Virus record (IMG/VR): IMGVR_UViG_3300031351_000489
Span: 1 to 25,231 of that record
Length of the DNA: 25,231 nt
Source: a virus
Strand: one strand, 5' to 3'
Shown here: positions 8,183-25,231 of the stretch, in pieces
How positions within the stretch are numbered: position 1 is the first letter of the stretch
Layout of the letters: every line of letters starts with the position of its first letter
Notes under the pieces: model-generated
The model's database searches: none
The model's input: the letters and a program-made list of their open reading frames with translations, nothing else
Told to the model about the DNA's origin: nothing
Translations under genes and position numbers: made by a program

Positions 8183-10160
8183 CCTAAGCGCCAGCTTAAC
8201 CGCAAGCCAGAAGAAACCCGACCGCCTTCCCTACGTGGAGGCCAAGGTCTACGACTTCGAGCAGGGCATCAAGAGGTTGTCCTGGGAAAGACTCTACACC
8301 GGCTCAGAAGCCGACAACCACCACGGCATCGCCTTCGACGGCCAGGGAAGCATGCACCGTATCAGGGCAGCCTCCAGTAACAAGCTCTATCGCCAGAAGG
8401 TTACCAGCCCTGATGATCAGTCCGACTATTCTCAGTGGACGCAGCTAGCTACGGATTGCCAGGGACCGTGTGCTATCGCAGCCTATGGGGCGAAGGTCTA
8501 CATCTTCTACCGCACCACGGCAAATGTCCTGTGGAAGTACTACAGCCACAACTACGGCCAGGACTGGTCAAATAGCCAGCTCGTAAGCTACGCCGATGTC
8601 CTGTCTATGGCAGCCACATGGTGGGGAACGGGAAACATCGTAGTTTGCTTCTGTTGCAAGGCAGCCGAGCTCAATGCTATCGTCCTGGATTCCTCGGACC
8701 AGTCCACCAGCCAGCACACCCACAGCGAGCCGATAACCCATCCCTTAACAGCCACCTACGGCATCGGAGCCTCTTATACCCCCAACCATATTGACGTTGT
8801 CTTCGCTGCTAAGCAGACGGCGGAGCCGTACAGCTTCATCGCCCTGTACCGCACCGAGCTTGACAGCAACTACGACTGGCTGGCCTTCCAGTATTTCATC
8901 ACAAGCCCCGATGGTGAAGACGTCACCTATGAGTACCCCGATTGCCACAACCCTGCATCTGCCCAGGACTACGAGAACACCCAGCTCACCGCGGTGGAAA
9001 AGTATGCCGGCACAACCGCCTACACGTTACCCCTCACCTGTCACGCCGTCAGAGGCTCAGCCTTCAGCTCCATGGCCTTCACCGAGCCAAAGCCCTTCTT
9101 GAATATAACCTCGAACTTTGGACTTAGAACATCCTCAACATCCGCTTATTGGTGGCTGGAACGCCCCGACGGAGTGTGGAGAGCCGCCAGACCAGCAGGA
9201 ACCCCGTTAGATCTAACCCCCGACATCCTCTCCTTGAACCTAGAACGTAGAACATTGAACGTAGAACTTGATAACAGTTCCGCTCAGTACGCCACACCAC
9301 CCGCAAAGCGAAGCGAAGTGGTCTTGAAGTTGGGCTATAGGACTTCCCAGGGAAACGAAGCGGTGGAGGTGGGGAGGTACTGGATCGACTCTTGGGAATA
9401 TTCCTCTACTCCCAACACATCAACCCTCACCCTGGTTTGCCTGAACGGGCAGGGACTGGCGGAGAAGTGGTCCGCCCGTTTTCAAATGAGGTGGCCCGCT
9501 GATAAGAGAGTGTGGGAGATCATCCAGGAGATTATCTGCAGGTGGGGAATCAACCTTACCAGCCCTGGGGGAGTCCCCAGGAGCTCAGCGGTTGATAACC
9601 TCTATCCCGACTTCACCCTCCAGCCAGGAACCCAGGGAACTCAAGCACTCAACAAACTCTTATCCTTCATACCCGACGCCCTCATCTTCGACGGCAACGA
9701 GGCCTATGTTAAGGACCTCAAAGACGACGAGGCAAGCTCATATTCCTACGGTACAGGCCACGTCATCCTCCAGGGTGAATATGCCGAAGCCGTCCCGTTA
9801 ACCAGGGCAAGAGCCATAGGGAGGGACGGTGAGGATAACCGTATCGTCGAGGACGCCTTCGACTGGCCTAACTTAGAACTCGGTATTGATAACTTAGAAC
9901 AATCTTATGACCCCAACCTTCAATCAGCCGCCAGGGCTCAGGAGAGAGCCGATGCTATCCTGAGAAAGGCGTCATTGCGAGCGGAGCGTGGCGATCTCGT
10001 CGTCCCCACCAATGTCGGTCAGGAGCTCTACGACGTCATCACCGTCACCGATGAGAGGTGCGGGATCTCGTCTAAGAAATACCGGGTACTCGATATCGAG
10101 ACCACCCTCAGCCTTCGTCAGTGGCTCTATCAGCAGAGGTTGACCATTGGAGCCCCGTAA
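8175..10160 (+). CDS. Large tail/baseplate protein: propeller-like N terminus, hub-like C terminus
   Basis: A 661-aa protein. After a short lead (MRTLSASLTASQKKPDRLPY) residues about 40-330 contain repeated beta strands with an Asp-box-like SHNYGQDWS (about 127-135) and other Trp-rich repeats, suggesting a sialidase-type propeller. From about 365 to 661 (EVGRYWIDSWEYS, then WEIIQEIICRWGI) it resembles baseplate hub or tail-tip proteins of the gp27/late-control type. It is likely part of the adsorption tip. Two repeat elements are translated within it: the TAGAAC heptamers as residues 354-365, in the linker between the halves, and an interspersed element at 9971-9999 as residues about 599-608. 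Confidence 0.75.
   Translation: MRTLSASLTASQKKPDRLPYVEAKVYDFEQGIKRLSWERLYTGSEADNHHGIAFDGQGSMHRIRAASSNKLYRQKVTSPDDQSDYSQWTQLATDCQGPCAIAAYGAKVYIFYRTTANVLWKYYSHNYGQDWSNSQLVSYADVLSMAATWWGTGNIVVCFCCKAAELNAIVLDSSDQSTSQHTHSEPITHPLTATYGIGASYTPNHIDVVFAAKQTAEPYSFIALYRTELDSNYDWLAFQYFITSPDGEDVTYEYPDCHNPASAQDYENTQLTAVEKYAGTTAYTLPLTCHAVRGSAFSSMAFTEPKPFLNITSNFGLRTSSTSAYWWLERPDGVWRAARPAGTPLDLTPDILSLNLERRTLNVELDNSSAQYATPPAKRSEVVLKLGYRTSQGNEAVEVGRYWIDSWEYSSTPNTSTLTLVCLNGQGLAEKWSARFQMRWPADKRVWEIIQEIICRWGINLTSPGGVPRSSAVDNLYPDFTLQPGTQGTQALNKLLSFIPDALIFDGNEAYVKDLKDDEASSYSYGTGHVILQGEYAEAVPLTRARAIGRDGEDNRIVEDAFDWPNLELGIDNLEQSYDPNLQSAARAQERADAILRKASLRAERGDLVVPTNVGQELYDVITVTDERCGISSKKYRVLDIETTLSLRQWLYQQRLTIGAP
9111..9131 (+). 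repeat. Heptamer tract inside the baseplate gene
   Basis: TCGAACT (9111), TTGGACT (9118) and TAGAACA (9125) are three in-phase degenerate units of the TAGAAC family lying within coding sequence and read without a stop. Confidence 0.6.
9234..9268 (+). repeat. Five-unit TAGAAC/TTGAAC heptamer tract inside a gene
   Basis: TTGAACC, TAGAACG, TAGAACA, TTGAACG and TAGAACT follow each other without a gap (9234-9268). The frame used avoids the TAG and TGA triplets and gives LNLERRTLNVEL, placed in the linker between the propeller-like and hub-like halves. Confidence 0.9.
9971..9999 (+). repeat. Interspersed GTCATTGCGAGCGGAGCG-type element inside the baseplate gene
   Basis: The segment begins GTCATTGCGAGCGGAGCG and ends GGCGATCTCG, a form I recognise as a dispersed element that occurs between genes in many bacterial genomes. 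Here it is read in frame as part of the hub-like domain (about SLRAERGDLV). Copy number in the host cannot be judged from this window. Confidence 0.55.
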
Positions 10161-10222: not shown

Positions 10223-10396
10223 ATGAGACTTCAACCCCACTACTTTTGCCCCAAAGGAGTCAAAACCCGCAAGCGGAAAGGCGAGCCCAAAACCCGCAAG
10301 GGCGACATCAAAGTCTGCTATGTCCGAATCAAGCGTCGGTGGGTGCGAGTCGGAACGATATGCCTCCACTGCCGCCAATTCACCGTCGAAATATGA
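10223..10396 (+). CDS. Small basic protein with Cys pairs (57 aa)
   Basis: Reading from ATG 10223 gives 57 codons and a TGA at 10394-10396. The product is strongly basic (KTRKRKGEPKTRKGD) and has Cys at residues 9, 32, 47 and 50, the last two as CLHC, so a small zinc ribbon is possible. It lies 62 bp after the baseplate gene on the same strand. Composition and the conserved-looking ends (YFCPKG at the start, RWVRVGTICLHC near the end) support a real gene. The function is unknown; a DNA- or RNA-binding role is only a guess. Confidence 0.55.
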   Translation: MRLQPHYFCPKGVKTRKRKGEPKTRKGDIKVCYVRIKRRWVRVGTICLHCRQFTVEI

Positions 10397-10521: not shown

Positions 10522-10550
10522 TTGACACAGCAGACCCGTAGCAGTACAGT
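10522..10550 (+). promoter_or_regulatory. Sigma70-type promoter for the Ntn-hydrolase gene
   Basis: A perfect -35 TTGACA (10522-10527) and -10 TACAGT (10545-10550) are separated by exactly 17 bp. Transcription would start near 10557, about 40 nt before the ATG at 10599. An own promoter in mid-phage marks the gene as separately expressed cargo. Confidence 0.6.
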
Positions 10551-10598
10551 GTAGCCCAAGTGCCCTAGGATATATCTTTCTGAGCAGGGAAACAGAAT

Positions 10599-11945
10599 AT
10601 GACTACAGAAATTGCCATAATGAATAAGGAGGCTGTTGCTCTCGCGGCAGATAGTGCAGTTACAACAGGCAGAGTCCAAGACAAGATCTTTAATTCTGCC
10701 AACAAACTTTTTCCTCTCGGTAGGGACCACTCTGTAGGAATAATGATCTATCAAAATGCCGACTTTATGGGCATACCTTGGGAATTTCTGATCAAAATCT
10801 ACAGGGATAAGGTGCTGCGACAGAGAAGCTTTAAGACCCTTAAAGCTTATGGTGACAGCTTCATCAGGTTTCTCAACAACCCCAATAGTGCATTTAAGGA
10901 TCTCGTCTCTCAATCAGAGCAAGAAAGATACTTCGGTTTGTTTGTCGACTACCAATTCGACCGCATTGTCGATTACACTATGAAGCAAGCATTCTCCGAG
11001 AGGCACCCCAACCGTGAAGCGCTGCTCACCAAACTCAGAACAACAGCGCAAGCTGCTATACAGGCCGCTCTGGACGTTTCCACAGATAATCTCAAAAACG
11101 ACAAGAAATATCAGTCTATACCAAACAGTTACTTAACAAATGTAGAGCGTAGATATGGAAAGATCACCAGGGAAGCTGCAAAACGAATTTTTGGCAAACC
11201 ACCAATTTCTTTACAAATTTCTCAAGCATTACAAGGTACTATAGACAAAATGGTTATTAATGCATTCGCTGCTCACTACTTGTACCCAGACATGATTTGG
11301 AAAGATTTTACTAACTACTCTGGCGTGGTGATTGCAGGTTTTGGCGAGGACGACAAGTTTCCCTCCCTCGACTCATATAAAGTTGGCGGGGTAGTAGGTG
11401 ACAGGCTTATAAGTGTGAAAGACAACCACTACAAAAGCAACAGAATCACCCCCTCGAACAGAGGTAGGATTTTGACCTTTGCACAGGAAAGAACAATACA
11501 AACATTTTTGACCGGAATCGATCCAACTTATGAAGAAAAGTTAGTCGACTACTTTGAACGAAAAACAAAGGACTTGTCTAAAGGTATTATCGCCAAAGTA
11601 GGTAGCATCGGCAACAAACAAAGGCAAGGGTTACAGAAACAAATAGAGGAGAACATAAAGAAAGCCAAAGACGATTATCAGGGCTACGTATGGAATCTCG
11701 GCTTTGACCATAGCCTTCCAATTGAAGCTTTTATTGTTTCAGTGTTGCCTAAAGGCGAGCTTGCTTCTATGGCTGAGACGCTGGTCAGTTTGGCTTCGTT
11801 TGAGCGTAGGGTTTCTCCAGGAAGGGAAACAGTAGGTGGACCAATAGACGTCGCCGTAATCTCCAAAGTGGATGGATTTATTTGGGTAAAGAAGAAGTCC
11901 TACTTCACGCTAGAAATGAACCCTGACTATTATGAGGGCACATAA
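10599..11945 (+). CDS. Proteasome-like Ntn (N-terminal nucleophile) hydrolase
   Basis: A 448-aa protein whose first 40 residues align with proteasome beta subunits. After Met removal Thr2 would be the catalytic Thr1, EAVALAADSAVT places D18 exactly at the D17 position, and ANKLFPLG puts K36 where beta subunits have the K33-L-F triplet, with a 2-residue insertion. VGIMIYQNADFMG (46-58) fits the following strand with its glycines. At 448 aa it is about twice the length of HslV or Anbu, with a helical middle (about 75-240) and a C-terminal section (about 300-448) of unknown role. It has its own promoter and is more AT-rich than the structural genes, so it is likely horizontally moved cargo. Substrate, oligomer and partner ATPase are unknown; host takeover or defence are inferences. 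Confidence 0.65.
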   Translation: MTTEIAIMNKEAVALAADSAVTTGRVQDKIFNSANKLFPLGRDHSVGIMIYQNADFMGIPWEFLIKIYRDKVLRQRSFKTLKAYGDSFIRFLNNPNSAFKDLVSQSEQERYFGLFVDYQFDRIVDYTMKQAFSERHPNREALLTKLRTTAQAAIQAALDVSTDNLKNDKKYQSIPNSYLTNVERRYGKITREAAKRIFGKPPISLQISQALQGTIDKMVINAFAAHYLYPDMIWKDFTNYSGVVIAGFGEDDKFPSLDSYKVGGVVGDRLISVKDNHYKSNRITPSNRGRILTFAQERTIQTFLTGIDPTYEEKLVDYFERKTKDLSKGIIAKVGSIGNKQRQGLQKQIEENIKKAKDDYQGYVWNLGFDHSLPIEAFIVSVLPKGELASMAETLVSLASFERRVSPGRETVGGPIDVAVISKVDGFIWVKKKSYFTLEMNPDYYEGT

Positions 11946-13347
11946 GGGCAAACGGTTCGCCAGCGATTCGCACCATCCACCAGTAAAAACCCCATAGTCT
12001 CCCATCATCGTGCCAGTCCTGCACCAACCCTAGGAACAGACAACCACCACCCCACCCGAGAACCACCCGAGAGGCGGGAACGGCTACGCCGCCCGCAGGC
12101 TCGCCGATGCCGTGGACGGCTCAAACCGTCGCCGCCACCGCACGGCTCGAAGGTTAGGAATTTATACTATCCACCACCTACCTACCAACCAGCCCAGTTA
12201 ACTATCCCAGGTGTCCCCGGTCCAGTGAATGATTCCATGAACGGTTCTTTCCTTTAGCCGGCGGGGTGACCACTGGCTTCGCGGGCGGGAGGGGGAAGGG
12301 TGCGGGCATCGCCGCCGCCAAAGGTAGCTAGCTCGTCAGCACAGCTCTTCTCCTGGAGGCTCAGGGTAACCGCCTTGAGGCTCGGCGGTGGCTCTGGCCC
12401 GCTGGAGGGACAGTGTCCGCCAAGCTCCGCCAGCGGCACCACCGCCGTCCTTCGTTGGTTCGCAGTCTGCCTCACTTGCCCTGACAAGTGTCGAGCCAGA
12501 GCCCGACTATCACCTCTCGGTGATTAGGCAAACTGCTTACCGGGAACGTCACCGAATACGCAGGGAGCTGTGAGGAAGGGGCAGCTCCGTTAAGGTCGCA
12601 AAGCCATTCTGGAAATTGCTTCCACCTGTCACTGCCTGTGACCACTACCTCCAAGCCACCAATCAATTTGCAGAACCTTCGCTACACTCAGGCGAGTGGC
12701 TTTGCTTCGGTGTGGGAGCGTCCAGCCAGCCGTAAAAAGCCCGCCTGGCTTTTGCGGTAAACCGTCGGCTGTCTGTCCTTAACACACGGTTTCGCTGCAC
12801 CTGCAGACATGGTTCGCTTCACAGAGAAGGTCGCTTCGCTCCGTTTCGGGCGGTGCGAAATCGCTTCGCTTACTTTCTATACAGCTTGCGTCGCTTGCTC
12901 TTCGCATCGCCCTCCAGGTTTCACGGGAACGGAGGGCATAACGGAACGGCTTCGTGGTTCGCTTCGCTCACGGCGGGATGTCCCGCACCCATAAGGTGTT
13001 CTATTGCCTGCTGCTTTCCTATTGTCCACGACCGCATCGTCGGCATCGTAATATGGGTCGCCGATGCTCCGTCGCTTCGCGTTCGGCAAGGGTCACGATT
13101 CTGTGCCCAGAGGCATTGCTTCACGCAAGGGAACCCAACCCTTGCCTTCAGCAACTTTCGTCGGAAAAGAGCAGCCATTTCCTGGAAGGACTCCTTCTGC
13201 TTTTTCTGCCGAAAGCAGAACGGCGTGCGAAGCCCGCCGCCCCTGCTTTTGCTACGGCATCCCTGGCTGGTCCTCAATCACCCGCTCTTTCACCAGAGTG
13301 AAAGCGCCAGCAGGCAATCTGCTGAGTTTAAGTCAGGAGGTGTAGTC
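11946..13347 (+). other. 1.4-kb stretch without credible genes, rich in hairpins and short repeats
   Basis: Open frames here are short, overlap on both strands, and are Arg/Ser/Pro/Gly-rich, so I call no gene. Hairpins include TCGGTGA/TCACCGA (12517-12523 with 12549-12555), AGCCAG/CTGGCT before a TTT (12724-12753), GCGGGA/TCCCGC (12973-12986) and CTGCTTT/AAAGCAG (13197-13218). CGCTTCGCT-type units recur around 12832, 12862, 12958 and 13073. It may hold a structured RNA, an origin, a packaging region or decayed genes. I see no tRNA or CRISPR in it. Confidence 0.6.
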
Positions 13348-16327: not shown

Positions 16328-16428
16328 CCAACCTTAGCAGACCTTCCAGCAGTATCCCCCAGGCCCCCTAATGCCCACGCCAGTCATCCATATCAGCATG
16401 ACGCAAAGCGTAAACGAAGATTGCCACC
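16328..16428 (-). repeat. Dispersed repeat, copy A (truncated)
   Basis: This segment matches 17759-17860 along its length and 21129-21215 in part. On the minus strand it retains only the C-terminal half of the microprotein frame (VAIFVYALRH, then a variant of DVDDWRGH). The left part of the frame is lost at a junction near 16428, next to the terminator. Confidence 0.8.
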
Positions 16429-16444
16429 CCGAGGGCGGAGTCCG

Positions 16445-16465
16445 AAAGGGCTTCGCCCTTTTTTT
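16445..16465 (+). terminator. Rho-independent terminator
   Basis: AAAGGGC (16445-16451) pairs with GCCCTTT (16455-16461) around a TTC loop and T continues to 16465. It would end plus-strand transcription from the 15683 gene and insulate the DUF3800 gene. Confidence 0.8.
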
Positions 16466-16486
16466 ATTGAGGCAAACCCCGACCCC

Positions 16487-16504
16487 GTCCGTCAGCTGAC
16501 GGAC
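16487..16504. other. Perfect 18-bp palindrome
   Basis: GTCCGTCAGCTGACGGAC is fully self-complementary with no spacer. It lies about 105 bp upstream of the DUF3800 promoter and could be a repressor site or a recombination remnant. Confidence 0.6.
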
Positions 16505-16609
16505 TCCTTTCCCTTGGCCTTTGCCAGCGGACAGGCAAAAAGGCCGAAGAAACGGTGGTGTATCATTTTGAATGAATACGAATATTACATGTCGTTGTGT
16601 TTTTTGCAT

Positions 16610-16622
16610 TATAATTGTCTCA
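16610..16622 (+). promoter_or_regulatory. -10 box giving a probable leaderless DUF3800 mRNA
   Basis: TATAAT (16610-16615) ends only 6 bp before ATG 16622, so transcription should start at or next to the A of the start codon. There is no ribosome site. TTACAT, 19 bp upstream of the box, is a weak -35 candidate. Confidence 0.5.
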
Positions 16623-17386
16623 TGGCTTTCAACTGTTATATCGATGAATCAGGCGACGAAGGGATTGACACTGGTGGCACACGCTGGTTTATTCTAGGTG
16701 CAATGATTGTTGCTGACAATGTTGACTTAAAAACTAGCGAAATGATAACTCGGATTAAATTAAAGTTGGGTAAAGACCCCCGAAAACCTTTACACTGGAT
16801 AGCTATTCGTAACCACGACAAGAAACTGTATGTCTGCAGTGAATTACTTACAGAGGACTGGATATTTTCTTGCGTTGCGACGGACAAAACACATCCATTT
16901 ATTCAAACGGCAAAAGGTTTACCAGAAAAATGGAACTTATATTTTTATTCAACTCGTCTATTACTTGAACGTTTGTCTTGGTATGCTCGTGATAATGGCG
17001 GCGAAAAAGCTACTTTAACTTTTGAGAAGCGCACCAATATGGATTACAAGGCATTGAATGAATACCTATCACATTTACGTCGCTGGATACCCCCGCTAGA
17101 GATTCAATGGGATTATCTCAATTGGCAATATCCTGAGATTATTGCAAAAGAGAAGAATCGTATGCTCCAAGCTACTGATTCTGTTTGCGGTGCTCTTAGC
17201 GATGCCCTTGAATATACTCCTTTGGGTAATATAGAGCCGAGGTACATCCTAACTTTGAAAGACAGATTCTACAGAAGGGGAAGTAATCTTTTTAGTTATG
17301 GACTAAAGCTCTTACATATACAAGGGGACAAAAGCGCTATACTAGGCCAACATGGAAATGAATATCCGTGGCTAAATATGATTTGA
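16622..17386 (+). CDS. DUF3800 family protein
   Basis: From ATG 16622 the 254-aa product begins MAFNCYIDESGDEG, the signature of DUF3800 (RNase H-like fold), with D8, E9 and D12 as candidate metal ligands and a following TRWFILGAMIV strand. DUF3800 proteins are widespread on phages, plasmids and defence-rich islands; a nuclease activity is suspected rather than proven. An upstream in-frame extension would run through a terminator and a promoter and is rejected. The gene is clearly AT-rich compared with its flanks, and the GC-rich DNA just after its stop looks like an interrupted older gene, so it was probably acquired as a cassette. Confidence 0.8.
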   Translation: MAFNCYIDESGDEGIDTGGTRWFILGAMIVADNVDLKTSEMITRIKLKLGKDPRKPLHWIAIRNHDKKLYVCSELLTEDWIFSCVATDKTHPFIQTAKGLPEKWNLYFYSTRLLLERLSWYARDNGGEKATLTFEKRTNMDYKALNEYLSHLRRWIPPLEIQWDYLNWQYPEIIAKEKNRMLQATDSVCGALSDALEYTPLGNIEPRYILTLKDRFYRRGSNLFSYGLKLLHIQGDKSAILGQHGNEYPWLNMI

Positions 17387-18000: not shown

Positions 18001-18585
18001 ATGTTTAAGAAACTTGGTATAGGTTTCGGAGTAGCTATCGCTATTGCTGCCATTGTTGTTTGTGCTGCACCACTCAAAACGGTGGCCTACACAGTGATGG
18101 TCGATTATCAGGATACAGAGACCTATTATGTAGATGAGTCTTATGAGGCGCAAGTGGCTGAGCCACTAGACTATCAGGTGGTCGATTCATATGTCGGCGA
18201 AGAAATAATCACTCACGAAGCTAGCACCATCATTGGTGGGATAGGTGAATCTCATGATACTTGGGAAGAGACAATCCCTGTGGCTTGTGTCGTTGTAAAA
18301 AACACAGACACGGTTTCTGGAACATTTACTGTGTCCTTCTCCGTCGCCAACTCTCTCGATGCGTTTTTCCTCACCATACCACTTGATTTAGCCCCTGATG
18401 AAACAAAGACAGCCGAATGCCTTGCTTATGAACTTGGTGATTGGGAATATAGGGTTGCACCGAGCACAAAGACAGTAACAGGCACAGAATACAGACAAGT
18501 AGAAAAGCAAAGAACCGTAACGAAACAGCGTCCTGAAACCCGCTATAAGGAAGTAACCTTGCTTGATTATTTGCTGCACTACTGA
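18001..18585 (+). CDS. Membrane-anchored surface protein, paralogue 1
   Basis: A 194-aa protein with an N-terminal signal anchor (residues 4-24) followed by PLKTVAYTVMVDYQDTE (24-40). The middle is a beta-rich, probably Ig-like domain (about 90-145, VVVKNTDTVSGTFTVSF). The C terminus is Lys/Arg-rich and ends in RYKEVTLLDYLLHY. The gene at 19196 encodes a paralogue with the same ends but a divergent middle. It is expressed from the promoter at 17930-17964 and may form an operon with 18634 (48-bp gap). The function is unknown; the conserved tail could be a docking or sorting tag on the outer face of the membrane. Confidence 0.75.
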   Translation: MFKKLGIGFGVAIAIAAIVVCAAPLKTVAYTVMVDYQDTETYYVDESYEAQVAEPLDYQVVDSYVGEEIITHEASTIIGGIGESHDTWEETIPVACVVVKNTDTVSGTFTVSFSVANSLDAFFLTIPLDLAPDETKTAECLAYELGDWEYRVAPSTKTVTGTEYRQVEKQRTVTKQRPETRYKEVTLLDYLLHY

Positions 18586-19195: not shown

Positions 19196-19696
19196 ATGAA
19201 GATCGGTATAGCTATAGGAGTAATAGTAGTAATCTTAGCTCTCGTTGTTTGCCTTGTTCCTCTTAAGACGGTGGCTTACACCGTGACGGTTGACTATCAG
19301 GATACAGAACCACTTAGCTATAAAGACATGGGGGCAGAGATTGTTAGCACTGGAACTTGCTATGGCTATGATAGCTCTACTGATAGAAACCGCATTTTTG
19401 GCTGGACATATGCTTATGCGGTTGAGTTAAAGAACACAGACGAGATTGCTGGAACATTCACTGTCCAGTTTGAGCATATTTCTGGAGGAGCATCATTCGT
19501 GGGCTCACAATCCATCCATCTAGAGCCTGGCGAGGAAGGTAAAGTACTATCTGACAATGTTAGAGGTTGCAGAGTCTATGAGCAAATCCCTGGAGCAAAG
19601 TATGAGGTTATCCCTGGAGCAAAGACTGTAACAAAACAGCGTCCTGAAACTCGCTATAAGGAAGTAACCTTGCTTGATTATTTGCTACACTACTAA
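19196..19696 (+). CDS. Membrane-anchored surface protein, paralogue 2
   Basis: A 166-aa protein with a signal anchor (residues 3-20), then PLKTVAYTVTVDYQDTE (22-38), a divergent beta-rich middle (AVELKNTDEIAGTFTVQFEH) and a C-terminal tail ending RYKEVTLLDYLLHY, matching the 194-aa protein at 18001. The last 70 bases of both genes are almost identical and differ mainly at silent sites, so the tail is under selection or gene conversion. GAGAGG precedes ATG 19196. It follows the 170-aa gene by 49 bp and probably shares its transcript. Confidence 0.75.
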   Translation: MKIGIAIGVIVVILALVVCLVPLKTVAYTVTVDYQDTEPLSYKDMGAEIVSTGTCYGYDSSTDRNRIFGWTYAYAVELKNTDEIAGTFTVQFEHISGGASFVGSQSIHLEPGEEGKVLSDNVRGCRVYEQIPGAKYEVIPGAKTVTKQRPETRYKEVTLLDYLLHY

Positions 19697-19739: not shown

Positions 19740-19813
19740 TCCCCAAACCCAGCCTATCCCCCGCCTAATCATCCGGAAGCGGCGGAGTTATCATCGTGAT
19801 CCGGCCCGACTTC
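19740..19813 (-). repeat. Remnant of the secreted-peptide repeat
   Basis: This segment resembles 20928-21010. On the minus strand a 16-codon frame starts at an ATG overlapping the TGA of the PemK-like gene and reads MKSGRITMITPPLPDD, matching the C terminus of the 53-aa secreted peptide (ITIIMTTPPLPDG). A codon-sized gap keeps the frame. Confidence 0.5.
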
Positions 19814-20261
19814 ATCGTTTGAATATAAGTTCCCAATGCTCATAAGATATATCTTTCCTAAACTTCCTAAGACAATTCCTGAGTTGCGCAAAGCAGTCGA
19901 CTGAAAGTACATTCATTAAATGCATTCTCCCAGAAAGAGTCCCCGCAAAAATTTCTGCTGTCCGTATCTCGAAAACCTGCGGCAGTTGAATATAAGTATC
20001 GAGCGGGAAAGACTCATGCCAATGTAAAGGTACAAAGAATACGCTCTTTTGCGTGTCACAACCTTCTTGACATCCTTCATATCTTTTCGATTGAGAAGTG
20101 GTTTTCAAAACGAGACAAGGTGAATTGATATCAGCAACATACAAGATTACGAATAGTTTGTCTGCCGCCGAACCATCTTCAAATGGGAAGTTATTGTAGA
20201 GTAGAACTTGCCCTGGTTGTGGACTATGCTGCATCGAGTTACTTTGTCGGCTTGAGGTCAA
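19812..20261 (-). CDS. PemK/MazF-like toxin candidate
   Basis: A 149-aa protein, or 140 aa if it starts at the ATG at 20234 (MQHSPQPGQVLLYNN). PGQVLLYNNFPFEDG followed by a FVILYV strand resembles the PGDIVLVDFPF start of PemK/MazF ribonucleases, and DTYIQLPQVFEIRTAEI resembles the later conserved strand. The long start overlaps the antitoxin gene by 23 bp, which suggests coupled translation. The neighbour is a Panacea-type antitoxin, so this would be its toxin. Toxicity and RNase activity are inferences. It could also be an unrelated SH3-like barrel. Confidence 0.6.
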   Translation of the reverse strand: MTSSRQSNSMQHSPQPGQVLLYNNFPFEDGSAADKLFVILYVADINSPCLVLKTTSQSKRYEGCQEGCDTQKSVFFVPLHWHESFPLDTYIQLPQVFEIRTAEIFAGTLSGRMHLMNVLSVDCFAQLRNCLRKFRKDISYEHWELIFKR

Positions 20262-20820
20262 AGCTATATACGGTTTCCCGATGTTCTTTCAAAGATTCCC
20301 TTGCATCCTCTAGGCTAACTGCAGATTCTTCGGAAATGCTGACTAGATAGTCTATGGGTTTGTTTATGCCCTTCTGCCTTTTTGTAATATCCCAAGGTTG
20401 TTTTGGCAGATGCGTGACTTCAGACATATCGCTTGCCGTAGCCTCTTTATACACAAAAGCCAAAGCTTCAAGCATTTTTATTTCTCTTGGCGTAAACACA
20501 GACAAATCGGGCTTCTCCAAAGCACGAACTTCGACCTCTTTGTAATTTGGTGCAAAATCATCCGTTCTTCGTATCAGCGCGATTTTTCCCTTGAAGTCTT
20601 CTGGCACATTAGCATCTCTTATCTCTAGCCAAAAATCTTTTGGTACAGGACCCTTCTCAAATGTGTGATACTTTAATCCAATAGAGGGATAGCCTGTCTG
20701 GTTAAAATGCATGAAGTCAAGAAAGTAGAGAAGCTTTGAAAGTTTGCCAAGGTTTACCCGTTTTGTGCTACCGGCAAAAAATAGTACAGCGTTCAGAAGT
20801 TTCCTTCTGTAGATATTCAT
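20239..20820 (-). CDS. Panacea (DUF4065/SocA-like) antitoxin
   Basis: A 193-aa protein. ATG 20820 is preferred over an upstream GTG because AGGAGG (20831-20826) stands 5 bp before it. Residues 19-63 (LGKLSKLLYFLDFMHFNQTG, then GLKYHTFEKGPVP) are the Panacea-domain signature of GepA/SocA-like proteins. These domains neutralise many different toxins by direct binding. The partner gene overlaps it downstream, a standard type II toxin-antitoxin order. A C-terminal helical tail (about 150-193) may give toxin specificity. Confidence 0.85.
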   Translation of the reverse strand: MNIYRRKLLNAVLFFAGSTKRVNLGKLSKLLYFLDFMHFNQTGYPSIGLKYHTFEKGPVPKDFWLEIRDANVPEDFKGKIALIRRTDDFAPNYKEVEVRALEKPDLSVFTPREIKMLEALAFVYKEATASDMSEVTHLPKQPWDITKRQKGINKPIDYLVSISEESAVSLEDARESLKEHRETVYSFDLKPTK

Positions 20821-20956
20821 TCCCACCTCCTACAACCCTAATACTATACTATCACTTGTCAACATGTAAGAGCAAAATTGTACTAGTACCCCATCCTTAC
20901 TGAACATTCTGACGAAATGTGCAACACGCCACCCCCAAACTCAGCATATCCCCTAC

Positions 20957-21388: not shown

Positions 21389-24385
21389 ATGGTGCTTTCG
21401 TATGGGAAGGATCTGATTGAAGCTCTCGTACATAAGTACGAAGCCCTCACATATAAAGAGAAGAATAGCTACAACGAAGCTAACACTGTTAACGCATTCA
21501 TCAGGCCCCTTTTTGAGGCTCTTGGGTGGGACTTTTCAACTATAGATGAGGTAGAAGCTGAAAAGACCATTTTAAAAGGCAGGGTAGATTACGTATTTAA
21601 GGTTAAGAAGGTTTCGAAGTTCTGTGTGGAGGTTAAGTCTCTCCGCCATGACTTGACCGATGAAGACAGAGAACAAGCCATTAGCTATGCATACAATAAG
21701 GGTCTGACGTGGGCAATCCTTACGAATTTTGGGCGAACACAAGTCTTCAACGCAGAAGTTAAAAGCGATCTGAAGAGCGCCCAGTTTCTGGATTTACGAT
21801 GCGAAGACTACCTGACTGAGTTTGAAGATCTCTCGTTAGTCTCTAAAGAATCAGCGTTAAGTGACGAGTTAGACAAGAAAGCCGAAAAATATGGCAAGTT
21901 AGCACGTCGAATACCTATCGAGAAGAAACTTTATGAACAATTGGCCAAATGGCGCGCTGACCTATTTAACCAGGTGTATGGGTTCAACAAAAGTATTGGC
22001 ATTACGCTCGATCAAACCGACCAATTGATACAGAAGCTGTTCAGCCGCCTCATATTCATACGTACTGCGGAAGACAGAGGCCTAGCAAGTAACCATCCGC
22101 TGTTAGCGGCTGTTCATCAGTGGGAAACTGAGGGGGGACAACTGCTAGAAAAGGTTATGGCTATATTTCAAGACTTTGCCCACACCTTTGACAGTGAAAT
22201 CTTCCCACTAATGGATCCCTGGCAGCAGATCTGGGTAAATGACCATGTTCTTGCAGAAATCATTAATGGGTTGTACCAAGTCCCAGGGGACTATGCTAAG
22301 TACTATTTCAACATAATCGAACCTGACGTATTAGGGCAAGTGTATGAACAATATCTGGGCTACGTGGCAAAAGCTGTCAAGCCTAAACCACAGATTCAAC
22401 AGACGTTCTTTCCGCCAACTGAGGGGCAAATCGAGATATCTGCAAAGAAAGAAAAACGAAAGAAGGGTGGCATTTATTACACGCCAAAATGGGTAACAGA
22501 CTACATAGTTAGGCAAACCATCATCCGCTACTTTGATGAGCATAGTTATAATGAAATTCTAAACATGAAGATTCTTGATCCTGCTTGTGGCTCTGGCTCA
22601 TTTCTTATCAGGGCTTATGATGAGCTTCTGTCCTACCACGCTAAGGTTAAAAGAAAACCAGTGGCCGAGTTGAGCTGGCAGGAAAGGATAGAGATTCTGA
22701 CTCGGAACATATTTGGGGTAGACCTAGACCCCCAAGCAGTCGAGATAGCCCGTCTGAATCTTCTCATCAGGGCTCTAGCACAAAGGAAATTATTGCCTTC
22801 GCTGGAGCACAACATCCAATGTGGTAATTCTTTGATCTTCGGCAAAGAAGAAGAGCTTGAGAAGTCTCTAGGCAGCAATTTCAAAGAGCTTAAACCATTC
22901 GATTGGGATGTGAGATTTCCTGATATCGTAAATTCGGGAAAATTTGACATCGTTATTGGCAATCCCCCGTACGTAATGGAGCTTCGGGATAATAAGGATA
23001 TTTTCAGGCAACTCAAGGCTACGCCTTTGGGCAGCAAGTATTATGAGCCCAAGATGGACATATTTTATTTCTTTATTGAGCTTGGAATCGATTTACTGAA
23101 ATCCGGCGGCTATCTTGGTTTCATAGTACAACAATATTGGGTTTCACGGGCTCACGCCTCGAAGTTGCGGCGAAAGGTCTTCGATGAGACATGTCCCCTA
23201 GCCTTGGTCGACTTTGGTGAATACCAGGTATTTCGAGATGCCCCGGGGCAGCACAATATGATTACCGTTTTCAAGAAGTCCAAAGACAAGGATGCCAAAA
23301 CGCTGACACTGCAACTTAAAGATGCGGAGGTGAGTGAGCAGGCAATCGCAAGAGCACTGGCTTCTGATGTCCAGGACCAAGGTATCTTTGACGGAAGGAT
23401 TGTAGAAACGCCACAGCTATTTGATGCTAAAACAGATAAGGTCTACGTTATCGAAGATTCTGTCTCACAAATTTTAACCAAGCTGTCATCAGATAGCTTT
23501 AACCTTGATGATACGGAGATTCAGCAAGGGCTAGTCACTCCGCAACATTTTCTTACATCCCAAGCAATTTCGAAACTCGCCAAACCCGAAAGTTACAAAG
23601 CGAATGAAGGCATCTTTGTTCTGAGAAAGGCTGAGGTCAACAAGCTTAAATTAACACAACAAGAGGAAAAGCTCTTGCGACCGTTCCACTACGCCGAGGA
23701 AATGGGCAGCTACTATTACAATCCTGAAGTCGGGCATTACCTCATTTACACACCCATAGAGATAGCGAAGGACATTGAATCCAACCCGAACAAGTATCGA
23801 AATATCAGATCTCACTTGGATAAGTACCAGCCGGTCATAACATCAGACCATAAGCCCTATGGAATACACAGGGCACGACAACCCGAATGGTTTGAAGATC
23901 CCAAAAAGATCATCTGTGTCAGAAAAACCAAGTATCCGAAGTTTGCCGTCGTACCTGAAGCCTGGTATGGAGATCAAGCTGTTCTCATTATCCGACTGAC
24001 AAAGCATACGCAAATCTCACCATATTTTGCGGTGGCAATATTAAACAGCAAGGTTGCTCACTTCTGGCTATTTCAACAAAAGAGACAAGGGAACCAGCTT
24101 CAGGTAGATAAGGAAGTTCTGATTCACTTCCCATTTCCCAGTATTGATTTGTCAAACACCGGGAGTAAGAAATTGTATGATGCCATCGTGACCTTAGCGA
24201 ACAAGGTAGTAAAGCAGAGAAGGGAACTAGAGATTATCAAGAGTAGCGGTGAAGATATATTTGGTGAAAAGGCAAAAGAGCTTCAGGCTGATATTGAGAA
24301 AACCAGGCATGAAATTGACCAGCTTGTTTTTGAGCTATATGGGCTGACTGAAGGGGAAATTAAGCGCATAGAAGGCGCAGCATGA
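21389..24385 (+). CDS. Single-chain Type IIG-like restriction-modification enzyme (Eco57I family)
   Basis: A 998-aa fusion. Residues 25-125 form a PD-(D/E)xK nuclease of the HSDR_N type with D67 (GRVDYVF), E81 and K83 (CVEVKS). Residues about 340-620 are an adenine-N6 methyltransferase with motif I DPACGSGSF (397-405) and motif IV NPPY (525-528). The C-terminal region (about 730-960) resembles the TaqI-like target-recognition domain and is followed by a helical tail. It would methylate one strand of its asymmetric site and cut unmodified DNA using S-adenosylmethionine. All catalytic residues are present. It has its own promoter and no separate methylase or specificity gene nearby. A BREX/DISARM-type partner set is absent. 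Confidence 0.9.
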   Translation: MVLSYGKDLIEALVHKYEALTYKEKNSYNEANTVNAFIRPLFEALGWDFSTIDEVEAEKTILKGRVDYVFKVKKVSKFCVEVKSLRHDLTDEDREQAISYAYNKGLTWAILTNFGRTQVFNAEVKSDLKSAQFLDLRCEDYLTEFEDLSLVSKESALSDELDKKAEKYGKLARRIPIEKKLYEQLAKWRADLFNQVYGFNKSIGITLDQTDQLIQKLFSRLIFIRTAEDRGLASNHPLLAAVHQWETEGGQLLEKVMAIFQDFAHTFDSEIFPLMDPWQQIWVNDHVLAEIINGLYQVPGDYAKYYFNIIEPDVLGQVYEQYLGYVAKAVKPKPQIQQTFFPPTEGQIEISAKKEKRKKGGIYYTPKWVTDYIVRQTIIRYFDEHSYNEILNMKILDPACGSGSFLIRAYDELLSYHAKVKRKPVAELSWQERIEILTRNIFGVDLDPQAVEIARLNLLIRALAQRKLLPSLEHNIQCGNSLIFGKEEELEKSLGSNFKELKPFDWDVRFPDIVNSGKFDIVIGNPPYVMELRDNKDIFRQLKATPLGSKYYEPKMDIFYFFIELGIDLLKSGGYLGFIVQQYWVSRAHASKLRRKVFDETCPLALVDFGEYQVFRDAPGQHNMITVFKKSKDKDAKTLTLQLKDAEVSEQAIARALASDVQDQGIFDGRIVETPQLFDAKTDKVYVIEDSVSQILTKLSSDSFNLDDTEIQQGLVTPQHFLTSQAISKLAKPESYKANEGIFVLRKAEVNKLKLTQQEEKLLRPFHYAEEMGSYYYNPEVGHYLIYTPIEIAKDIESNPNKYRNIRSHLDKYQPVITSDHKPYGIHRARQPEWFEDPKKIICVRKTKYPKFAVVPEAWYGDQAVLIIRLTKHTQISPYFAVAILNSKVAHFWLFQQKRQGNQLQVDKEVLIHFPFPSIDLSNTGSKKLYDAIVTLANKVVKQRRELEIIKSSGEDIFGEKAKELQADIEKTRHEIDQLVFELYGLTEGEIKRIEGAA

Positions 24386-24658: not shown

Positions 24659-25231
24659 TTATCTCTTGAATACCAAGGAGATTATGGGACAGCCCTTGGG
24701 AATTTGGACATCTCGGACTTCTTGAATAATCCCTTTGTCAATTGCGTACCCAGCATCCTTAGTTTTGGCTTCCCTAAAAAGCTTAGCGATTTCCTCCTTA
24801 GTGACACTTGTCTCTTGGCAGATAATATTCCCAATTCGTTTCTGGTCATTCAATATTACATCTAACTTTTCTCGTAAAGGCTTTTCATCAAATCTTTGAC
24901 CCTGAGAAACGCTGAATCCGACACCGTGAAACATGAATGTAGCGTTTGCTGTAGCGTAGCGATTACTGCCAGCAAGGAAGATTACAATGCCGGAAGAACT
25001 CACATCACCCACATTATGAATGGTGAGTTCGAATGGCATTCCTTTTAGCACGTTATAAAGATTTATCCCGTCCCTAACCGTACCACCAGGCGTGGCGAGT
25101 AATAAATAGACACCTTGCACTTTTTGATTTGCACAGTTGGACATGACACTAATAAGGCTCTCTGTTGTGCTGTTATTAATCTCAGCAGAAAATGATACAT
25201 AAACTAGAGGTGCGTTTTCTGGTATATTCAT
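24659..25231 (-). CDS. ClpP-like serine protease (head maturation or host type)
   Basis: A 190-aa protein whose ATG is the last triplet of the window on the minus strand. It follows the ClpP/crotonase fold: LLLATPGGTVRDGINLYNVL (about 43-62), a nucleophile elbow GDVSSSG with S79 aligned to the ClpP serine, MFHGVG with H102, and DAGYAIDKGII (159-169) aligned to the ClpP EAxxxGLID segment. The third catalytic acid is not where expected, so activity is not assured. ClpP-like proteins serve as phage prohead proteases, but this one is far from the head genes and on the other strand. A solitary regulatory or defence-associated protease is equally possible. Confidence 0.8.
   Translation of the reverse strand: MNIPENAPLVYVSFSAEINNSTTESLISVMSNCANQKVQGVYLLLATPGGTVRDGINLYNVLKGMPFELTIHNVGDVSSSGIVIFLAGSNRYATANATFMFHGVGFSVSQGQRFDEKPLREKLDVILNDQKRIGNIICQETSVTKEEIAKLFREAKTKDAGYAIDKGIIQEVRDVQIPKGCPIISLVFKR

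Follow-up and report, generated by a model that had tools for sequence, protein, structure and literature searches.

A survey published in 2021 by Fuchs, Alva and Lupas described 22 new proteasome homologues (PMC8665760), including PMI-4 (Proteasome homolog with Multiple Insertions 4), which comprises 501 sequences at a 90% identity filter from many bacterial phyla, Euryarchaeota and phages and was left with neither an assigned function nor a functionally suggestive genomic context. PMI-3 and PMI-4 alone combine a long insertion after helices H1/H2 with an insertion between H3 and H4, and such insertions were argued to prevent ring assembly; PMI-3 is a small family, with phages unmarked. Also covered there are Connectase, a proteasome homologue that acts as a monomer with a specific substrate and is a specific protein ligase, and the phage-spread proteasome-type hydrolases PPH and AAH. 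This was the sole paper on PMI-4 found in the literature.

The DNA analysed here (the window) comprises 25,231 nucleotides, positions 1 to 25,231 of the IMG/VR virus record IMGVR_UViG_3300031351_000489. It encodes a protein of 448 residues that is, with very little doubt, an N-terminal-threonine hydrolase of the PMI-4 type, an assignment made by comparison with the published description of PMI-4 (reference sequence HDY66466.1), with which it agrees in every feature compared. The protein matches phrog_5990, which carries no annotated function, over its full length (E 1.9e-98). Searches of it against Pfam, NCBIfam and PADLOC returned zero matches, the PADLOC result placing it in no known anti-phage defence system. 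An earlier note on this DNA had suggested that such a hydrolase, carried as phage cargo, would be a new kind of host-takeover, superinfection or defence factor; as PMI-4 had already been published with phages among its carriers (PMC8665760), the novelty of the kind is unsupported. The features of the gene are as follows (all on the + strand).

10599-11945, +: hydrolase of probable PMI-4 type with an N-terminal threonine, 448 residues (ORF with ATG start; phrog_5990; model fold)
10602-10604, +: Thr2 codon, predicted nucleophile once Met is removed, equivalent to proteasome Thr1 (invariant, 114/114; aligned to yeast beta5 residue 1)
10650-10652, +: Asp18 codon, equivalent to proteasome Asp17 (invariant, 114/114)
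10704-10706, +: Lys36 codon, equivalent to proteasome Lys33 (invariant, 114/114; K-x-F context)
10911-11300, +: first helical insertion, residues ~105-234, between core helices H1/H2 and the inner strands (model secondary structure)
11523-11711, +: second helical insertion, residues ~309-371, between core helices H3 and H4 (model secondary structure)
11826-11852, +: C-terminal signature ETVGGPIDV, residues 410-418, matching proteasome SGGMIDV (profile match and family alignment)

Fold and active site of the hydrolase

Structure prediction was carried out with AlphaFold2 using 113 homologues and yielded a model (pLDDT 92.3, pTM 0.89) with the four-layer proteasome-beta fold, in which the strand and helix order of a beta subunit is joined by two extra helical blocks. 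Proteasome subunits ranked first when this model was searched with Foldseek (E 6.9e-4, probability 1.0), and VIA-align superposed 184 of its residues on yeast beta5 at an rmsd of 3.5 (Z 17.2), placing model residue 2 over Thr1. The predicted fold is therefore the Ntn fold that the earlier note had proposed to look for with AlphaFold and Foldseek. A search of a viral fold library with the model gave zero matches at E 0.001 or better, the weak best being uncharacterised phage proteins. The two predicted insertions, which correspond in place to those published for PMI-4, account for the doubled size of the protein, described beforehand as about twice that of HslV or Anbu.

The residues expected of a threonine hydrolase are conserved throughout the family. 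Thr2, Asn9, Asp18, Ser19, Lys36 and Phe38 never vary in 114 diverse homologues, which upholds the earlier alignment of Thr2, Asp18 and Lys36 (the last in a K-L-F context) with proteasome Thr1, Asp17 and Lys33; homologues not conserving these three, named in the earlier note as the finding that would speak against it, did not appear. A threonine directly follows the start codon in 154/154 complete homologues, so that the propeptide is absent, as in PMI-4. The combination of a threonine after the start, an Asp near 18 and a Lys-hydrophobic-Phe near 36 was found in 0/1,993 neighbouring ORFs and is thus not a matter of chance. A profile of 15 homologues found Thermoplasma proteasome beta as its best solved chain, a weak match (E 0.012) that is collinear at the N-terminal Thr/KLF stretch and at the C-terminal GGxxDV stretch. 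The proteasome helper serines Ser129 and Ser169 are apparently not kept, the family having A/Q and V at the likely places, to go by the sequence and the short profile match alone.

Met-Thr is a good substrate of methionine aminopeptidase, and the threonine behind every start codon fits removal of Met1 by this enzyme, which would expose Thr2. The freed Thr2 would then attack an amide bond, with Asp18 and Lys36 assisting and tuning it in the manner of proteasome beta subunits. A proteasome-like ring is probably blocked by the two helical insertions, which would instead confer a specific substrate or partner; with a ring made unlikely in this way, we infer a monomer whose choice of substrate would lie in the insertions and a partner.

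Compared with 20S proteasome beta subunits (yeast beta5, Thermoplasma beta), the hydrolase shares the core fold and the three catalytic equivalents but differs in its low identity (~12-20%), two large insertions, lack of a propeptide, apparently replaced serines and stand-alone gene. Other proteasome homologues were considered and set aside. In Connectase H1/H2 are missing and two helices are inserted between S3 and S4, whereas the model has helices at residues 61-73 and 81-93 and adjacent strands at 37-39 and 46-53, with no S3/S4 insertion. HslV is a compact subunit without insertions, linked to hslU; the window protein has 448 residues and two insertions, and the loci of its homologues show no recurrent ATPase neighbour. 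Anbu (5nyw), whose core fold is similar to the model (Z 16.4, VIA-align), has a C-terminal coiled-coil helix H5 and no large insertions, whereas the model has two large insertions and just a short C-terminal helix. Unlike the window hydrolase, PPH and AAH fall in the compact group I without insertions, and PPH has only ~140 residues.

Genomic setting and mobility

The hydrolase gene lies, as first noted, behind the tail genes, following a head-tail block of terminase, portal, major head protein and a tail protein that ends at 10160. An unlisted, very basic ORF of ~57 codons with a CxxC pair occupies 10223-10396, between the tail gene and the hydrolase. The more AT-rich composition seen earlier was confirmed, the hydrolase having 42.8% GC against 54.1% for the preceding phage genes. 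The gene had also been credited with its own -35/-10 promoter.

10522-10550, +: candidate sigma-70-like promoter TTGACA-N17-TACAGT (consensus scan, 10/12 matches)

The site exists, but promoter-like sites are no commoner here than in shuffles (3 against 2.3 expected), and this frequency leaves a promoter of the hydrolase's own unproven. Position 10522, given as the start of the feature, is that of the promoter-like site, the gene itself beginning at 10599.

The closest relative, 62% identical, is the hydrolase at locus L096, which ends the same block in a related phage (identities: portal 83%, head 73%, tail 56%). The alignment of the two phages breaks at the hydrolase stop codon, and further downstream the two have no recognisable coding sequence in common. 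A GC-rich stretch (60.5%) without an evident gene, 11945-12853, begins where the homology to L096 ends and may be a recombination or integration boundary; a tRNA attachment site adjoining the hydrolase was looked for and not found.

Relatives were collected using tblastn and alignment-based scans; single-sequence scans of genome and viral collections gave zero matches, an alignment being needed as query. Full-length relatives were obtained from 13 phage records and 10 plasmids (9 covering at least 80% of the query), and the alignment-based scans found relatives in 478 bacterial and archaeal genome stretches and 157 viral contigs. This spread over bacterial phyla, Euryarchaeota and phages separates the family from PMI-3. 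Full-length members occur in Streptococcus satellites and in phages of Streptococcus, Providencia, Stenotrophomonas and Porphyromonas, and the plasmid carriers are rhizobial, Enterococcus and Pantoea. In the satellites the hydrolase lies near the end of the record, Javan103, Javan160 and Javan468 having a single small gene beyond it and Javan421 seven genes; in phage Javan85 it is the last gene. Elsewhere in phages it adjoins lysis genes of opposite orientation, separates a DNA adenine methylase from a holin, or has portal/adaptor genes on one side and neck genes on the other. In E. coli, antiterminator Q and the late genes flank it; the cassette has the opposite orientation and is followed by a 12-pair-stem terminator.

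This range of settings bears on whether the hydrolase might be an ordinary protease of phage structural maturation or lysis. Its position directly behind the tail genes in the window, and its lysis or neck gene neighbours in several phages, would suit such an enzyme, which is nevertheless very improbable: the gene is found in satellites without structural genes, in plasmids and in chromosomes, its positions vary and can be on the strand opposite to the late genes, and the E. coli cassette is present in just 9 of 5,426 genomes although 3,257 carry the common prophage backbone, scored by a match to the Q/RusA region. The hydrolase is, in our judgement, very likely a mobile cargo (moron) gene of temperate phages, satellites, plasmids and chromosomes, neither structural nor replicative. 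Phage morons are accessory genes placed amid conserved ones, of deviant composition and transcribed on their own; the E. coli prophage loci and the GC offset agree with this description. In 97.6% of 165 loci the GC content of the hydrolase lies below that of its flanks (mean offset 9.7 points), and a 108-sequence tree mixes viral with cellular members, with at least seven forced viral/cellular changes, and places archaeal hydrolases beside those of Bacillota, Planctomycetota and Chloroflexota. The description of a separately promoted cargo gene is thus supported across the family, the promoter in the window being unproven. Hotspots of antiviral systems are known from P2 phages and P4 satellites (PMC9122126), and these resemble the PMI-4 settings and other morons in that an accessory cassette lies between conserved phage genes; they differ in that the hotspots hold antiviral systems, whereas for PMI-4 an antiviral activity is only proposed.

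Clustering of neighbouring genes of at least 60 residues revealed no recurrent large partner gene. Chromosomal copies show no clear excess of defence families nearby: PADLOC families numbered 103 within four genes against 85 in distant neighbours, a crude count from equal samples; the strongest matches in the distant-neighbour sample resemble housekeeping enzymes. On three rhizobial plasmids (L008, 2733-4799; L011, 8699-11187; L012, 7671-10177) multiubiquitin and ThiF-type E1 genes lie within ~5 kb of the hydrolase, and two of these three copies are also near an annotated Clp protease subunit; no multiubiquitin/ThiF neighbours were seen in the other annotated hydrolase loci.

The small downstream gene

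Several phage records contain a gene of 55-59 codons directly 3' of the hydrolase, and a corresponding ORF is present, unannotated, in the E. coli genomes. A separate scan was made for small ORFs starting between 45 bases before and 30 bases after the hydrolase stop, and found one in 147/155 loci, against 38% of random positions; the 60-residue cut-off of the neighbour clustering had largely hidden it. Its length has a median of 59.5 residues (interquartile range 56-64); among 106 independent cases, 58 overlap the hydrolase and 70 are in the +1 frame. At E 0.01, profiles trained on half of the independent groups recovered 141 of 168 held-out partners; they matched nothing elsewhere in 50,929 six-frame segments, a count that omits three loci with a broken or offset hydrolase frame. 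The pooled pN/pS of 0.24 (12 pairs) shows purifying selection, and across pairs of loci the identity of the partners rises with that of the hydrolases (Spearman 0.46, Mantel p 0.001). On the strength of its position, the held-out profile, the pN/pS and the identity correlation we regard the small ORF as a real partner gene, co-inherited with the hydrolase, and one that appears new. The neighbourhood survey proposed in the earlier note has produced both a moron setting and a conserved small partner, and here the family departs from the PMI-4 paper, which reported no suggestive context: most members have the small gene downstream.

The consensus of the partner in the largest clade is, abbreviated, MKKKKKKKKVYRSIEEFEKKYFPKSF...ELAKESLEKIRKKL, and motifs specific to individual clades (loci L016 to L175) are ExxFFPKS, REWQKKFNP, FFNLP and QPKxxxDFF. 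The main profile does not reach the partners of the more divergent clades (Enterobacteria, Firmicutes, streptococci), which have sequences of their own, and for this reason a single ancestry of all partners is not demonstrated. When a read-through fusion of hydrolase and partner was folded, the partner reached a pLDDT of 57-80, and the pTM was 0.81 against 0.89 for the hydrolase alone, low confidence that lends binding no computational support.

With most carriers having a two-gene cassette of hydrolase and an overlapping protein of ~60 residues, the partner most likely binds and regulates the hydrolase or is its dedicated substrate; it could serve as an inhibitor or sensor, as an antitoxin, or as the protein that is cleaved. 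The last of these would make the enzyme a specific maturase or a connectase-like ligase, which would cleave the partner, or join it to another protein, at the conserved (F/Y)(F/L)P region of the partner. Connectase is a precedent for monomeric proteasome homologues as specific protein ligases (PMC8665760), and the best-conserved stretch of the partner is short and resembles a recognition site (ExxFFPKS in one clade, REWQKKFNP in another). However, the neighbour clustering showed no linked gene for a ligation target, and the second half of the partner, a predicted helix, is also conserved, which would be superfluous in a simple substrate, so that we hold a substrate role to be rather unlikely.

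A toxin-antitoxin or addiction module, with the hydrolase as a growth-arresting protease and the overlapping partner as its antitoxin, would stabilise a mobile element, and would agree with the co-inheritance of a small and often overlapping gene and with carriage by plasmids, prophages and satellites. Antitoxin genes are usually first in order, but here the small gene comes second, and an intact hydrolase without it is present in the window and at several other loci. We accordingly give this arrangement a low probability.

11932-11997, +: place of the partner in the window, occupied by just a 21-codon ORF without the partner motif (profile search and comparison with L096)

The partner profile had zero matches in the whole window, and the window phage has lost the partner gene. 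The hydrolase had been called self-contained, a description that does not carry over to the family, since most members have the conserved partner. The window hydrolase may act alone, or the cassette may be decaying. If it is stranded, functionless cargo, decay would have followed the loss of the partner, in keeping with the missing gene and the GC-rich downstream region; yet the ORF is uninterrupted, no catalytic or signature residue has been lost, and pN/pS against L096 is 0.41, which makes functionless cargo improbable. An open and somewhat constrained hydrolase without a partner also argues mildly against a lethal toxin that needs an antitoxin.

Possible role of the cassette and other genes of the window

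The most likely role of the hydrolase and its partner, tentatively put, is phage defence or competition among mobile elements. This is the best single guess in view of the moron setting, carriage at the accessory end of satellites, rapid exchange, AT-richness and the P2/P4 precedent. The hydrolase of a resident element would cleave a host protein or one belonging to a superinfecting phage. That PMI-4 and its partner make up a so far unrecognised two-gene system of immunity or competition, derived from the proteasome and exchanged among bacteria, archaea and phages and with the partner controlling or feeding the hydrolase, is possible but doubtful. A role of the cassette in phage competition, if borne out, would bring a proteasome-fold effector into prokaryotic immunity, and the partner would show control of such a hydrolase without a ring or AAA+ ATPase. 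We regard the small partner gene, lost in the window, as the most useful new fact. Together with the E. coli prophage moron setting it makes PMI-4, catalogued in 2021 without a functional clue, a testable two-gene system.

Several other genes of the window were recorded. A Type IIG restriction-modification enzyme at 21389-24385 (PADLOC REase_MTase_IIG, E 4e-105; Eco57I methylase domain) gives the window at least one clear defence gene. A SocA/Panacea-type antitoxin-like protein is encoded at 20239-20826 (- strand), and with the adjacent ORF 19812-20261 (- strand) it forms a possible toxin-antitoxin pair. A DUF3800 protein is encoded at 16421-17386, and a DUF3800 gene also follows the hydrolase by ~1 kb on a Ruegeria megaplasmid (L013). 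The proteins encoded at 18001-18585 and 19196-19696 have near-identical C-terminal ends (VTKQRPETRYKEVTLLDYLLHY) and an N-terminal hydrophobic segment and are apparently paralogous; between them a third small protein, possibly membrane-anchored, is encoded. A protein resembling ClpP and head-maturation proteases is encoded at 24659-25231 (- strand); its gene lies at the edge of the contig, a long way from the head genes, which are on the opposite strand.
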